This document shows positions 6,809 through 15,938 of a stretch of DNA of 41,257 nucleotides, one piece after another; positions within the stretch are counted from its first letter, which is position 1, and every line of letters starts with the position of its first letter. Source of the DNA: a bacterium. Its GTDB lineage: Bacteria; Electryoneota; RPQS01. The translations under genes were made by a program, and so were the position numbers. The stretch lies in the NCBI GenBank assembly GCA_026394155.1, contig JAPKYT010000055.1, positions 1 through 41,257 of the forward strand, in the 5' to 3' direction. The notes beneath the pieces were generated by a model that did no database searches, had not been told where the DNA came from, and saw only the letters and a list, made by a program, of their open reading frames with translations.

Positions 6809-6856
6809 ACGTCTGCCGATGGCATCGCCGCCGTTGTGCCCGCTCATCGTCATGCC

Positions 6857-8257
6857 ATGAAACATGCTTGGTATCTGCGCATCGCGCTGTTGATGGCTGA
6901 CCTGACCCTGCTCGAGGCCGCCTTCTTCGGCGTGTACTGGTGGCGGTTCAAGACGGGGATGTTCGTCAATCCGGTGGCTTTCTTCCTGCCGGACCTCCTG
7001 GTCCCCAGTTTGATTGTCGCCGGTTATTGGGTTCTGGTGCTGGCCTGGTTCGGGCTCTTTCGCTTTGATCCGCTTGCATCGCGCGCCAAAACTCTGCGCG
7101 CCTGTCTCAAAGCCAGCGCCTTTGGCGTGCTCATTTTGTTCATTCTCACCTTCGACCCCAATCAGCCTCTGCCGAGTTCACGGGTGATTCTCGCCTCGTA
7201 TGGCGCGGGCATTTTCGTGATCGTGGCCGTCAACCGTTTGGGGTTGCTCACCGTCCTGCGCGAGCTGCGCGTGCGCGGCTACGGCACCTTGCGTACCCTG
7301 CTGGTGGGCGGCGGACGCCGCGCGCGCAATGCCTTGCACTATCTCTCCGAGCATCCCGAGCTCGGCCTCAAGGTGCGCGGCATGCTGGCCGATTCCACCG
7401 ACCTGGCGTCATCAGAAGCCGCGCCGGTGCCGTACCTCGGGCCGCTGTCTCACTTCGGCCCGCAACTGCGCGGCGGCGGCGTCGAGGCCGTGCTCATCGC
7501 CGTGGACGGCGCAGCCGAGCGCCAACTTGGCCGTTTGGTGCGCGTCCTTCGCGGCCGGCGCACTCGTGCGTTCATCATGGCGGATCAATACCCGCTGCTC
7601 ACCGGCGAGGTCCGGCCGGCGCGCATCCACGGCCATCCGCTCGTGGAGATTCAGGCGGAACTGCTTTCTTGGGTCGAGCGTTTCTTCAAGAGAGTTACGG
7701 ACGTCGTCCTGTCGCTGGTTCTGTTGGTGGTCACGTCGCCCCTTTGGCTCGTTTTGTCGGCGCTGATTCCTTGGACGTCACCGGGGCCGGTATTTCACCT
7801 GCAGGCGAGAGTGGGCCTGAACGGACGCGTGTTTAAGCTGCTGAAGTTCCGCTCGATGAGACAGGATGCCGAGGCGCGGACGGGCGCGGTGTTGGCCGTC
7901 GAGGGAGATCCGCGCGTCACGGTCGTGGGCAGGTGGATTCGACGCACCCGACTGGATGAGTTGCCGCAGCTCATCAACGTGCTGCTCGGCCGGATGAGCA
8001 TTGTCGGCCCCCGGCCGGAACGCATCGAGTTCGTCGAGCGGTTCCTCAAGGAAGTCCCGTTGTATGCGCGCCGCCTGAACGTCAAGCCCGGCCTCACCGG
8101 ATGGTCGCAGGTGCATCTGAAATATGACCGCAGCGCCGATCAGATTCCCGTCAAGCTGAAGTATGATTTCTACTATATCGAGAACATGTCCCTGCCGCTC
8201 GACATCAAGATCATGTTCATGACGCTGTTCGTCATGCTGCGCGGCGAGGGACTCTAA
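6857..8257 (+). CDS. Undecaprenyl-phosphate sugar-1-phosphate transferase (WbaP/WcaJ type)
   Basis: Initiating enzyme of polysaccharide synthesis: it moves a sugar-1-phosphate from a nucleotide sugar to undecaprenyl phosphate in the inner membrane. Four helices lie in the first 130 residues. A Rossmann-like middle domain with LLVGGGRRAR spans about 140-250. The C-terminal bacterial sugar-transferase domain (about 270-466) has the re-entrant helix, KLLKFRSM, the catalytic-region DELPQLINVLLGRMSIVGPRP, and the LNVKPGLTGW motif. The start is uncertain. ATG 6857 gives the usual short basic N-terminus; GTG 6836 would add seven residues, and neither has a clear ribosome binding site. The donor sugar (glucose, galactose or other) cannot be read from sequence. 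It is the third polysaccharide gene and lies 16 bases before serS. Confidence 0.88.
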   Translation: MKHAWYLRIALLMADLTLLEAAFFGVYWWRFKTGMFVNPVAFFLPDLLVPSLIVAGYWVLVLAWFGLFRFDPLASRAKTLRACLKASAFGVLILFILTFDPNQPLPSSRVILASYGAGIFVIVAVNRLGLLTVLRELRVRGYGTLRTLLVGGGRRARNALHYLSEHPELGLKVRGMLADSTDLASSEAAPVPYLGPLSHFGPQLRGGGVEAVLIAVDGAAERQLGRLVRVLRGRRTRAFIMADQYPLLTGEVRPARIHGHPLVEIQAELLSWVERFFKRVTDVVLSLVLLVVTSPLWLVLSALIPWTSPGPVFHLQARVGLNGRVFKLLKFRSMRQDAEARTGAVLAVEGDPRVTVVGRWIRRTRLDELPQLINVLLGRMSIVGPRPERIEFVERFLKEVPLYARRLNVKPGLTGWSQVHLKYDRSADQIPVKLKYDFYYIENMSLPLDIKIMFMTLFVMLRGEGL

Positions 8258-11022: not shown

Positions 11023-13211
11023 CGGAGTTCCGTGTCGCGCAATCCGTCGTGTTGATCTCCGACTTTCGACTCGCGCTGGCGCACAGCCCGTGGCTCTATG
11101 TGCTGGCCGCTCTTTTGGCTGCCGCCTTTGCCTTCGCGGTCTATCGCTACACGCTGCCGCCGGTCAGCCGCCTGCGGCGAAGCGTTCTCTGGATCCTGCG
11201 CGGGCTGGCGCTCGTCCTGCTCATATTCCTGCTCTTCGAACCGCTGGTCACCTACTTTCGCGGACGCGCCAGACCGCCGGTGGTGGCCCTTCTCGTGGAC
11301 CGATCCGCGTCCATGGCGGTTTCCAGCCGGGCCGAGGATCGCGCGCGGGTTCTGCGGAAAATCTTGACCAATCCCGCGCTCTCTGGTTTGTCGCACCGAG
11401 CGCAGGTGCGCGCCTTTGCCTTCGCGGATTCGCTTGACGAACTGCCTTTGGACTCCTTGCAGACACTGCCGCTGAGCGGTGTCGGTTCCGATGTGGCGGG
11501 CGCGTGGACGCGGGCGCAGAAATTGTTGTCCACGGAGAATCTGGCCGCGGTCGTTCTGATCAGCGACGGAGCCTACAACCTCGGAGAGAATCCCGTTCGC
11601 GCAGCCGCGTCATCGCCGGTGCCCATTTATGCGGTCGGCGTGGGCGACACGGCGGGTGAAGCGGACGCGGCCATCGCGCAGATCACGACCAATGAACTCA
11701 CCTACGGGGGAAGCCGTGTGCCGGTGGACATTCGCGTTCAGGCGCGCGGTCTGGCCGGCAAGTCCGCAGTGCTCAGGCTGCTGCGAGCCAACGGTTCGGA
11801 GATCGCGCGGCAGAACGTGAGCTTCCAGGGAGAGGAATCTGAGGCCGCGGTCACGCTGAGTTTCGAAGCCACCGAAGCCGGTGACGTGCGCTTGGTGGCC
11901 GCGCTGGATTCCGTACCCGGGGAGTCCATGCTGCAGAACAACCGGCGCTCGGTCATTGTGCGAGTGCTCGAACGCAAGGCCAGCGTGTACCTCATCGCGG
12001 GAGGGCCGAGCGCGGACCTGGCGATCTTGCGGCAAACGCTGGAGGCTGATACCACGGTGGAGGTGGTCGCGCTCGTCGAGGCTGCCGGTGGCGGTTTCCT
12101 CTATGGAGAGGCGACGCCGTCCACAGTGGAATTGGAGAAGGCGAGCCTCTTCGTGCTCTGCGATTTTCCCACGGCCCGCTCATCGCAGGGTCTCATTGAG
12201 GCCGTCGCGCAGGCCTCGCTTGAAAAACGGATTCCCGTGCTCTTTCAGGCAGGTCCGCATGTGTCCGTGTCGCGCCTGTCGGAACTGAAATCCGTTCTGC
12301 CGCTGGAATCGCCGCGTCAAGTGCTGAGCGAGGACGTGGTGCTGACGCGTGCCGCGGCCGGTCATCCCGCTCTGACTTCCGCGACCTCGCTCCCGGCGGA
12401 GTGGACGGACTTGCCTCCCGTGTACGGCGGCGTGGGCAACTTCACCGTCGGCGGCGGGGGGCAGGTGGTCGTCAAACTCTCGCGGGAAACGCTGGGCATC
12501 GTGGAAGACGAGCCGGGACTGGTTCTATGGGAGCTGGGTGGTCGCCGCGCCGCCGCTTTGCTATGTTGGGGAACGGCGCGTTGGAAGCTGCAACTTGCCG
12601 GCAATCAGACCGCATCCGGATTCTACGACCAGTTAATGGCAAGGTTGCGCGGCTGGCTGGTGGCTCCGGCGGAAGAACAGCGCGTCAAAATTCGCACGTC
12701 GAAGAGGATGTACTCCAGCGCCGAGGTCGTTCGTTTCAGCGCGCAAGTCTACGGCGCGGACCTCGCGCCGCGCGACGATGCCACGCTGGACGTGCGCGTC
12801 ACGTCGGGCTCACGAACCGAAAGCGTGGCCATGAGATCTCGCGGCAACGGCCGCTTTGAAGGCGAGCTGATGCCGTGGGCCGCGGGCGAGTACCGTTTCG
12901 CGGGAAGCGCGCAGGTGAACAGCGATACGCTGGGCGGCGATCACGGCCTGTTCGCGGTCGAGCCCTTCAACGTGGAGCTGCTCGATCCCCGCGCGCGTTT
13001 CGATGTTCTGCGGCAGGTGGCGCACGTTTCGGGCGGCGGCTTCGCGCCCGCCGCGCGCGCCGACACTCTGCTCTCCCGCTTGAAGTTCGAGCCGCGCGTG
13101 GTGGTCACACGGCACGAGGTGTCCCTGTGGCGGCAGGCGCTGCTGATCTGGATTATCATCGCTCTGCTCGCCATCGAATGGACCGTTCGCAAGCGCAGCG
13201 GCATGTTGTGA
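11019..13211 (+). CDS. Membrane protein with von Willebrand factor A domain
   Basis: 730-residue membrane protein of unknown role. Two helices near the N-terminus (about 25-43 and 58-76) precede a vWA domain whose metal-ion-dependent adhesion site DRSASM is at about 94-99 and whose later strand carries LISDGAYN. A middle region (from LERKASVYLIAGG) resembles the glutamine-amidotransferase-like fold found in related large vWA membrane proteins. A beta-rich region follows, and a final helix (about 703-722) ends in Arg-Lys-Arg, so most of the protein between helices 2 and 3 should face the periplasm. Start ATG overlaps tsaD (ATGA); an in-frame upstream extension lies inside tsaD and is rejected. 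The next genes are a membrane-tailed receiver and a lipoprotein, suggesting an envelope-related function. Confidence 0.75.
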   Translation: MTEFRVAQSVVLISDFRLALAHSPWLYVLAALLAAAFAFAVYRYTLPPVSRLRRSVLWILRGLALVLLIFLLFEPLVTYFRGRARPPVVALLVDRSASMAVSSRAEDRARVLRKILTNPALSGLSHRAQVRAFAFADSLDELPLDSLQTLPLSGVGSDVAGAWTRAQKLLSTENLAAVVLISDGAYNLGENPVRAAASSPVPIYAVGVGDTAGEADAAIAQITTNELTYGGSRVPVDIRVQARGLAGKSAVLRLLRANGSEIARQNVSFQGEESEAAVTLSFEATEAGDVRLVAALDSVPGESMLQNNRRSVIVRVLERKASVYLIAGGPSADLAILRQTLEADTTVEVVALVEAAGGGFLYGEATPSTVELEKASLFVLCDFPTARSSQGLIEAVAQASLEKRIPVLFQAGPHVSVSRLSELKSVLPLESPRQVLSEDVVLTRAAAGHPALTSATSLPAEWTDLPPVYGGVGNFTVGGGGQVVVKLSRETLGIVEDEPGLVLWELGGRRAAALLCWGTARWKLQLAGNQTASGFYDQLMARLRGWLVAPAEEQRVKIRTSKRMYSSAEVVRFSAQVYGADLAPRDDATLDVRVTSGSRTESVAMRSRGNGRFEGELMPWAAGEYRFAGSAQVNSDTLGGDHGLFAVEPFNVELLDPRARFDVLRQVAHVSGGGFAPAARADTLLSRLKFEPRVVVTRHEVSLWRQALLIWIIIALLAIEWTVRKRSGML

Positions 13212-13313
13212 GAAAAAGCTGAAAATCTGAAAGACTGAAAGCTGAGAGGAGCCGAAGAAACTCTTCGCCAGCACTTCGGCCTTTGCCGTTTCACCAACCT
13301 CAAGGGGTTCGCC

Positions 13314-13784
13314 ATGGCACGAATCCTCGTGATTGACGATGACGCGAACTACCGCGCCGTGCTGCGGAGTTTCATCGAGGACAAGGGGCACGTGGTCATC
13401 GAAGCGGAAAATGCCAACGACGGGCTGCGCATTTTCCTGCAAGAGAAGGCGGATCTCGTCGTGTCGGATCTCATGATGCCGGTGAAATCCGGTCTTGATC
13501 TTCTGCGGGAGCTTCGGCAGACGGATCCCAAAGTGCTGTTCATCATGGTCACCGGCTATCCCACGGTGGACGCGGCCACGTCCGCCATGAAGGAAGGGGC
13601 CTACGATTTTCTGGTCAAGCCGGTGAACATAGATCAACTGGCGGCGGTGATGAACCGCGCGCTTTCCACCATCGCGTTGCGCTCCAACCTCTCCACCATG
13701 CGCGGAATGAATGTAGCGCTGCTGTTTTCAATTCCGTTCTGGATCGTAGTGGGGATTGTCGTGCGCATGCTGCTGAAGCGCTGA
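13314..13784 (+). CDS. Response-regulator receiver protein with C-terminal membrane segment
   Basis: A stand-alone CheY-like receiver of 156 residues. The phosphorylation pocket is complete: acidic cluster D8-D9-D10, phospho-acceptor D52 in SDLMMP, T80 in VTGYP and K102 in VKPV. No DNA-binding or enzymatic output domain follows. Instead residues about 132-153 form a hydrophobic helix ending in Lys-Arg, predicting a tail-anchored protein with its receiver in the cytoplasm. This is unusual for the family. AAGGGG lies about 10 bases before the ATG. No histidine kinase is nearby. A 102-base gap separates it from the vWA gene and contains a CTGAAA micro-repeat; the lipoprotein gene follows after 14 bases. 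What the anchored receiver acts on is unknown. Confidence 0.85.
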   Translation: MARILVIDDDANYRAVLRSFIEDKGHVVIEAENANDGLRIFLQEKADLVVSDLMMPVKSGLDLLRELRQTDPKVLFIMVTGYPTVDAATSAMKEGAYDFLVKPVNIDQLAAVMNRALSTIALRSNLSTMRGMNVALLFSIPFWIVVGIVVRMLLKR

Positions 13785-13798
13785 GACGGAGGGAGATC

Positions 13799-14281
13799 AT
13801 GAGTACTGCACGCGTTCTCAGGGTGCTGCATCGCGGCCTTTCCGGTCTCTACCCGCTGTTGCTTCTTGCCCTCGCCCTGGCTTCGGGTAGCTGCCGGCAT
13901 AAGAATAATCCGGTGGGACCGGACACCACGCAGCCCGGTCAATGGACAATGTATCTGCGCGCGCCGCTGGTCATGTATCGGGATCAAGTCGGCGGGCACG
14001 TCATCAATGACACCATCATCGTCCGCGTCTTCAACGCGGAGGGACAGTGGAAGGCGGGTGTGCTCATTCGCTCGCAGGCTTCCGTCAGCCACGACAGCGT
14101 GACGCCCACCGCCAGCACTTGGGGAGATACCACAATCCATTGGTGGGGTTGCGATGGGGCCATTATCTACTGGGGCAGCGGTGGCGTTGACGGTCAGGAA
14201 ACGGTGCATAGCTGGGCGATCTGGCATGGTGACACCGTGGCCGAGGCGTCCGTTTCCTTCAAAGTCATGGATCCGCTCTGA
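13799..14281 (+). CDS. Small lipoprotein of unknown function
   Basis: 160-residue predicted lipoprotein. A basic N-terminus and a Leu-rich hydrophobic segment (YPLLLLALALASGSC) lead to a lipobox with Cys at about 32. The mature protein begins Arg-His-Lys-Asn-Asn-Pro-Val-Gly-Pro, a linker style common in lipoproteins of Bacteroidetes-related phyla. The rest is rich in Thr, Val and Trp with alternating polar/apolar residues, suggesting a small beta-sandwich, perhaps Ig-like. GGAGGGAG immediately upstream gives a strong ribosome binding site. It is the last gene of its run and is followed by a hairpin repeat and a terminator. No homologue is recognised. Confidence 0.7.
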   Translation: MSTARVLRVLHRGLSGLYPLLLLALALASGSCRHKNNPVGPDTTQPGQWTMYLRAPLVMYRDQVGGHVINDTIIVRVFNAEGQWKAGVLIRSQASVSHDSVTPTASTWGDTTIHWWGCDGAIIYWGSGGVDGQETVHSWAIWHGDTVAEASVSFKVMDPL

Positions 14282-14399: not shown

Positions 14400-15938
14400 T
14401 TATTCCTGTTGAAAGCGCCGGTAGGTTGCCGCGAACTCGTCTTTGCCGCAGGCCAGCGCGCACGCGTTCGGCCACAGCGCGCGAGCCTGCGCCACCATCT
14501 GATCCGAAAGGCTGCGGATTTCCCACTGGGCATGATGATCGGATCTCAGGCGAGCGAAATGATAGAGTTCGCGCGCGTTGAGATGAATGAGCACTCGCCG
14601 GCGGTGAGCATTCGTCAGCAGATAGGGTGCCAGCAGCGGATGCTCCGCCGCCAGCTTCGCCGCCTGAGTCCCGCAGGCGCGAACCGCCGCCACGTAAGGC
14701 TCCTCCAGCCTCGCCTTCCGGATTCCGGGCGGAAGAACGAAACCCAGTGCGGGATCATAGGGCTGCGGGAGCAAGGTCATCAGGCGGTGACGTTTGAGCT
14801 GCGCGAAACAGGAAGCGCTGATGAGAGCCTCGAAGGTGAGCGCAGCCACCTCGAACCCGCGCGGCGCGCTGTCATGCACGGTCATGTCGCGAAAGAGGAG
14901 CCGCCACAGCTTCGCCCGCTCGCTCGTCCCGGCGCTGATGCTCGCACCGCGCGCGAACGCCACCGCCCGCAGAATCTTCTCTTCGCCGTCGGGCGTCGCC
15001 TCCACGAGGCGCGCCGAAGGCTCGCTGGAGTACTCCTCTCGCGGCAAATCGCGCTGGAGCGGAAGAGCTTCTGCTAACGCCGCCACAGTGGAGCGCGGGT
15101 AGGGACCGCGTTGAGTGTATTTCACCAGCGACGGCGCAAGATCGCTCACCGCCTGATGAATGGCTGCACCCAGATCGCGCACTTCGCGCAGCGGATGGTC
15201 GGAAAAATCGCGGACCACATACTCGACATTGCGCGCGTTGGCCGTCATTCCCATCTGCGTGGCGCAGGCCAACGGCAAAAGATAGCGCGCATCTTCCTTG
15301 CTGCGGTTTTCGAGTTCGCGCGCTTCCTCCTTTCCCGGTTCGCCGCCCAGCTCTTCACGGTAGTGTTCCTCTAACAGCGCGCAGAGATTCCGGTATTGAG
15401 CGAAGCAAGAAGAGATCAAGCTCTGGACCGACGCTTCCCAGTTCGTTCCACAAAGCTCCGCGGGCATCACCCAGTCGGCGGTGAGCGCAATGTAACGCTG
15501 CGATTTCTCGGTAAAGCTCAGCAGCCGGTGGGCCTGAAGCTCTTCGCAGGCGAGGCGGGAAATGCCGGAGACGTCGAAGTTGAAGCAGGCATGCTCCGCC
15601 ACTGAAGCGTGGCCAAGTCCGAAGATAATGTTTTCATTAGACTTTCTTGCCCGGGCAACGCCGAATCTGGCGGCCCGCCGAAGTTCCGTGACATGTTTGG
15701 GATCGCGGCTGATGCGGGCGTAAGCGGCCGAGATGGTTTCCGGGGTGAAGGACTCGGGGCCGAGAACGGAGCGAATGTGCTCTGTCAGCCGCTGAAACCG
15801 GCCTCGCGCCTCGTTTCCACCCGTGGGTGCATGATCGGCGAGCGCGATCTCGTGCTCGATGTTCTGCAGAAACTCCACGGTCTCCCTGAGGAGATCGGCA
15901 TCAACATTGTAGCCGGCCAGACGTAGGGTCAGGGGCAT
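14400..15938 (-). CDS. Tandem-domain ThyX-like (FAD-dependent thymidylate synthase family) protein
   Basis: 512 residues, about twice the length of a normal ThyX, which methylates dUMP with methylenetetrahydrofolate and FAD. The N-terminal half has GHASVAEHACFNF and an altered signature EELQAHRLLSFTEKSQRY, where canonical ThyX has RHR-x-x-S-x-N-E-x-S-x-R-Y. The C-terminal half has another signature region, QLKRHRLMTLLPQPY, which keeps RHR but loses the Ser/Glu/Arg residues, and then the usual late ThyX segment NARELYHFARLRSDHHAQWEIR. Each half thus keeps a different part of the active-site signature, so activity could be shared, altered or lost. It is monocistronic, convergent with the lipoprotein gene and shares its terminator. 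The family is certain; thymidylate synthase activity is not. Confidence 0.85.
   Translation of the reverse strand: MPLTLRLAGYNVDADLLRETVEFLQNIEHEIALADHAPTGGNEARGRFQRLTEHIRSVLGPESFTPETISAAYARISRDPKHVTELRRAARFGVARARKSNENIIFGLGHASVAEHACFNFDVSGISRLACEELQAHRLLSFTEKSQRYIALTADWVMPAELCGTNWEASVQSLISSCFAQYRNLCALLEEHYREELGGEPGKEEARELENRSKEDARYLLPLACATQMGMTANARNVEYVVRDFSDHPLREVRDLGAAIHQAVSDLAPSLVKYTQRGPYPRSTVAALAEALPLQRDLPREEYSSEPSARLVEATPDGEEKILRAVAFARGASISAGTSERAKLWRLLFRDMTVHDSAPRGFEVAALTFEALISASCFAQLKRHRLMTLLPQPYDPALGFVLPPGIRKARLEEPYVAAVRACGTQAAKLAAEHPLLAPYLLTNAHRRRVLIHLNARELYHFARLRSDHHAQWEIRSLSDQMVAQARALWPNACALACGKDEFAATYRRFQQE

Follow-up and report, generated by a model that had tools for sequence, protein, structure and literature searches.

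Proteins that consist of a receiver domain alone commonly act as phosphate sinks or relay steps. DifD is an example of such a sink or relay protein (PMC12802240), and EpsW of Myxococcus xanthus, likewise a regulator of one domain, exerts its effect by binding the phosphoglycosyl transferase EpsZ, an enzyme of the membrane (PMC12802240). The family considered here resembles the single-domain response regulators of the CheY, Spo0F and DivK type in having a receiver fold, a full active site, no output domain and a likely output through protein contact, and as judged from sequence it is a family of single-domain response regulators by both its domain and its active site. It departs from the soluble norm of CheY, Spo0F and DivK in that its members have their own conserved C-terminal membrane helix. 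Receivers tied to a membrane domain are also known from the archaeal MetOD3-REC-MetOD2 regulators, but these are multi-domain proteins, four of them in Methanoregula, rather than a receiver with a single helix (PMC5847659).

The gene through which we came to this family lies in a window of 41,257 nucleotides, which is the whole stretch of DNA that was analysed, and the features of the gene and its downstream neighbour are as follows.

13302..13307, forward strand: AAGGGG, a probable ribosome-binding site for the receiver gene, inferred from sequence
13314..13784, forward strand: gene for a protein of 156 aa with a receiver and a C-terminal membrane helix, from the ORF translation and orthologues
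13323..13649, forward strand: Response_reg receiver domain, residues 4-112 (Pfam PF00072, E 3.8e-27)
13701..13754, forward strand: tail motif [KR]GxNxAxxxSIPxWxxxG, residues 130-147, from alignments
13707..13772, forward strand: hydrophobic helix, residues 132-153, a predicted membrane segment by hydropathy that is continuous with alpha-5 in the AF2 model
13799..14281, forward strand: gene for a predicted lipoprotein of 160 aa with lipobox cysteine C32 and an Ig-like/beta-sandwich domain, starting 14 nt after the receiver gene

The receiver gene opens with the ATG at 13314, behind the AAGGGG, and no better reading of 13314-13784 was found on either strand. Its product has the complete phospho-relay and catalytic set (D8-D10, D52, T80 and K102), and Pfam gave no match besides Response_reg, an output domain being absent. 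The receiver is followed by a short linker and the hydrophobic helix at about 132-153, which ends in Lys-Arg, and by nothing else; this is the one C-terminal hydrophobic segment of a protein with no periplasmic domain and no signal peptide. In an alignment of 52 proteins D9, D52, T80 and K102 are invariant, which indicates that the receiver is under selection as a phospho-switch. The sequence-only reading, which had described an intact, phosphorylatable receiver with a C-terminal hydrophobic segment at 132-153 and no output domain, is borne out in these respects, and the protein is conserved as a real one. The terminal Lys-Arg that it pointed to is present in the window protein, but the pair is not conserved, although the C-terminal flank of the helix is net positive in 50 of the 52 proteins.

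The closest receiver sequences are of the NtrC/AtoC type, and the PDB folds that resemble the AF2 model are those of ordinary receivers (CheY, Spo0F and NtrC receivers, with NtrC1 and NtrX among the closest). Unlike the NtrC family, the protein has no AAA+, Fis/HTH or DNA-binding domain. The likeness is what favours an artefact or a decayed NtrC-type regulator that has lost its output domain and ends in a hydrophobic stretch by chance, a reading that we consider refuted and practically without probability, as the same length and tail are conserved in 52 proteins of two phyla and the active site is intact.

Within the window's class, 12 of 13 genomes carry one orthologue with the same tail, the exception being a genome that is 56% complete, and in the window's own family the tail is found in 10 of 11 genomes. 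The 12 class orthologues are all of 155-156 aa and lack an output domain. A first tail profile, built from the window's family only, was applied to 17 genomes from other groups and gave clear matches in six, including KSB1 and Calditrichota/Caldithrix (E 1.7e-5 to 3.6e-11), each of them located where a receiver frame ends; a widened profile matched 41 of 82 genomes of the KSB1/Calditrichota phylum, down to E 1.3e-21. The length of about 155 aa is uniform in both phyla. The search for receiver-plus-single-helix proteins that the sequence-only reading proposed has accordingly recovered the same architecture in the class and in KSB1/Calditrichota genomes, and neither of the outcomes that it named as contrary was seen: instead of continuing into an output domain, the frames in both groups end about 35-45 aa past the receiver, and instead of being absent from all homologues, the tail is kept in all 12 class orthologues and in about 40 genomes of another phylum.

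Elsewhere, the tail profile had no match in 26 other genomes of the window's phylum, and tail searches gave none in 396 genomes from the phylum to which an Ignavibacteria MAG belongs (Bacteroidota side), 133 from that of a Zixibacteria MAG, 48 mixed genomes from outside the phylum of the carriers and seven of another phylum, although these negatives hinge on the sensitivity of the profile, and an empty result without a positive control shows little. From the same 26 genomes a full-length profile recovered chiefly receiver proteins of greater length, most of them with NtrC-like frame lengths; a whole-protein search of the genome contigs likewise yielded NtrC-type and other longer receivers and nothing else, and the four other stand-alone receivers of the window's genome (L002, L003, L011 and L012) have no hydrophobic tail. 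In a tree of the receiver alone the two groups are each monophyletic (support 0.99 and 0.82), whereas their union has a support of only 0.34, and the case for a single origin of both groups therefore rests mainly on the shared tail.

The tail is the most conserved part of these proteins. Across the 52 members P141 and W143 are the same in every protein, N133 and S139 are conserved in 98%, G147 in 96% and I140 in 94%, and position 130 is always K or R; the mean majority frequency is 0.71 for the tail (126-150), compared with 0.60 for the receiver and 0.41 for the linker. The best 19-residue Kyte-Doolittle mean within the tail averages 2.33 over these members, with a minimum of 1.82, compared with a maximum of 1.6 at any place within their receivers. 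Conservation along the tail is periodic, with a maximum at 100 degrees per residue in three of four windows (permutation p of about 0.01-0.02 in those three and 0.09 in the fourth), and this period fits a helix with one packed face. Residues G131, A135 and S139 form a small-xxx-small row. Neither Pfam nor the PDB sequences contain a match to the tail. The AF2 model based on 12 orthologues has a confident receiver and a single helix from 106 to 155 (mean pLDDT 86.5, though 69-71 at 121-140), and it predicts that alpha-5 runs into the membrane helix, with uncertainty at the junction.

In having a cytoplasmic domain, one C-terminal hydrophobic helix and a basic end, the proteins are like the C-tail-anchored proteins (PMC6389858), but their cytoplasmic domain is a different one, and the N, S, P, W and G of the tail are conserved across phyla. 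A plain tail anchor, which would do no more than keep an ordinary CheY-like or Spo0F-like protein (a phosphate sink or relay protein) concentrated at the membrane, close to its kinase, is unlikely: it accords with the usual roles of receiver-only proteins, DifD among them, and with the lack of a periplasmic domain, but such an anchor should drift, and N133, S139, P141, W143 and G147 stand at 96-100% across two phyla. Since the tail is conserved more strongly than the receiver itself, and in two uncultured bacterial groups, it is on alignment evidence no generic anchor and is probably a working part rather than just a tether; the sequence-only reading, which spoke of a tail-anchored CheY-like protein, understated it.

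The reading that we favour, with moderate confidence, is that of a membrane-fixed single-domain response regulator in which alpha-5 runs into a specific membrane helix and phosphorylation alters contacts at the membrane or within it. D52 would receive its phosphate from a histidine kinase whose gene lies elsewhere in the genome, which has 18 HATPase_c matches, none of them in the window, that could include this kinase. Alpha-5, which belongs to the usual alpha4-beta5-alpha5 output face, would continue unbroken into the C-terminal membrane helix, which would present one strongly conserved face, and the alpha4-beta5-alpha5 face and the attached helix would change their packing. The output would consist of contact with a protein at the membrane or within it, rather than of DNA binding, where we infer both the nature of the partner and the membrane location. 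A more specific form, in which the tail would be an intramembrane element dedicated to output, that is, an effector helix (spanning or re-entrant) driven through a rigid alpha-5 and directed at an intramembrane partner or a lipid, is put forward more tentatively, at somewhat under even chances.

The hydrophobic stretch of about 17-20 residues has the length of a spanning helix, and its flanks carry an average net charge of +2.3 on the N-terminal and +1.7 on the C-terminal side. As the receiver must stay in the cytoplasm, a spanning helix would put the C-flank charges outside, against the positive-inside rule, and judged by these charges a simple spanning tail is a rather poor fit. The alternative is a re-entrant (monotopic) helix that would dip into the cytoplasmic leaflet and return, broken at Ser-Ile-Pro and with both ends cytoplasmic, in which case the tail may serve lipid-linked chemistry or curvature instead of spanning as an anchor. 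Precedents exist in PglC, whose re-entrant topology is enforced by a Ser-Pro break and a Lys-Arg pair, and in caveolin-1, where Ile-Pro has this role (PMC6133551). As in PglC and the monotopic phosphoglycosyl transferases (PMC6133551), basic residues precede the hydrophobic helix and Ser/Ile-Pro lies within it: the centre of the hydrophobic stretch is occupied by S139 (98%), I140 (94%) and P141 (100%), a sequence motif at which the helix would be broken on this reading. The positive charge of both flanks points the same way, as does the presence of a large phosphoglycosyl transferase-like gene (window 6836-8257) among the genes syntenic in the class. Nevertheless we regard the re-entrant topology as somewhat unlikely, for the AF2 helix is unbroken and the stretch is long enough to span, and tail-anchored proteins of E. 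coli such as ElaB and YqjD likewise end in basic residues. Moreover, unlike that of PglC, the helix is C-terminal and is accompanied by no transferase domain and no detectable sequence match, and the D-x12-P spacing that defines monotopic phosphoglycosyl transferases (PMC12802240) is missing, the alignments showing no conserved Asp at the corresponding position.

In the window's class the gene order is serS, aldolase, tsaD, vWA-like, pccB-like, receiver, lipoprotein and thyX-like, and the receiver gene is genetically linked to neither a kinase nor a target. The lipoprotein gene is the only constant direct neighbour, following the receiver gene immediately in all 12 class members, and the link to it suggested by the sequence-only reading has held. 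Its lipobox-like cysteine is invariant in the alignment and its model is a beta-sandwich (mean pLDDT 81.5) with only weak beta-sandwich matches in the PDB (best E 1.9e-3); the sequence drifts fast, with a mean column identity of 29% against 73% for the receiver protein. At one locus (L116:8960-9772) the lipoprotein is internally duplicated, with two copies of the beta-sandwich domain.

The same reading had also seen the vWA gene as part of an envelope signalling module together with the receiver and the lipoprotein. In favour of such a module, the three genes lie close together in the class and the lipoprotein gene is directly 3' throughout; but at 9 of the 11 class loci that show both the vWA-like and the receiver gene, these are separated by a pccB-like carboxyltransferase gene, joined in the second family (two of the nine) by an M16 peptidase gene between the pccB-like and receiver genes, and the co-occurrence with vWA membrane proteins that was to be checked does not extend to the other phylum, where no vWA gene lies near any of the 40 homologues. 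The vWA match of the neighbour moreover falls below the Pfam cut-off. Co-function with the vWA protein was rejected as synteny, and the three-part module is very improbable; with serS, tsaD and an aldolase gene present, the neighbourhood reads as housekeeping synteny. In the window's genus (window 13211-13314, and L114) the pccB-like gene is absent between the vWA-like and receiver genes, and it is present in L116-L122. The ThyX-like protein, encoded on the reverse strand at window 14400-15938 (512 aa, two Thy1-matching stretches), is a homologue of thymidylate synthase with tandem domains that the class conserves. The phosphoglycosyl transferase-like gene mentioned above lies on the forward strand in the conserved class synteny and was identified by eye and from its cluster (cluster 15); because of the EpsW-EpsZ precedent its product may be considered a candidate target of the receiver, as a lead only.

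In the KSB1/Calditrichota phylum the neighbours vary by clade while receiver and tail stay constant. At 13 of the 40 loci the receiver gene is directly followed by one for a small basic protein whose conserved end reads RxRRLTxxLFGWxWKR; this protein has no Pfam family above the cut-off and is a possible membrane-surface partner of the receiver. These proteins, of about 100-140 aa (L205 and 12 further loci, for example L195, L196 and L208), also have a STxTLVxLLxxKGIxSxxEIL motif. A rhomboid-like gene occurs within two genes of the receiver at eight loci of one clade, convergent on the opposite strand in seven (L194, L197, L202, L204, L213, L219 and L232) and on the same strand in L198, and the genes after it are in most cases M23-peptidase-like and GDPD-like ones (all named by eye); cleavage of the tail by the rhomboid was rejected, since the strand in seven of the eight and these companions read as synteny. 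In part of the phylum NtrC and hybrid-kinase genes are found several genes upstream, with unrelated genes intervening, and a linked NtrC/kinase operon was discarded as a weak lead.

Taken together, what counts for the membrane-fixed regulator is the invariant active site, a tail more conserved than the receiver, its helical period, the AF2 helix, the uniform length and the pairing with the lipoprotein, and what counts against it is the lack of a linked kinase or target, the differing neighbours in the two phyla, the uncertain AF2 junction and the positive charge on both flanks; on this balance we hold it to be reasonably probable.

No report of a receiver with one conserved C-terminal helix was found in the mostly open-access literature searched, and if it is true that the helix is the effector, this would be a response-regulator output without precedent in that literature. 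Output-less response regulators are common, and few of their targets are known; in this family the helix would confine the output to the membrane, and the tail gives the exact residues to test, namely N133, S139, P141, W143 and G147.
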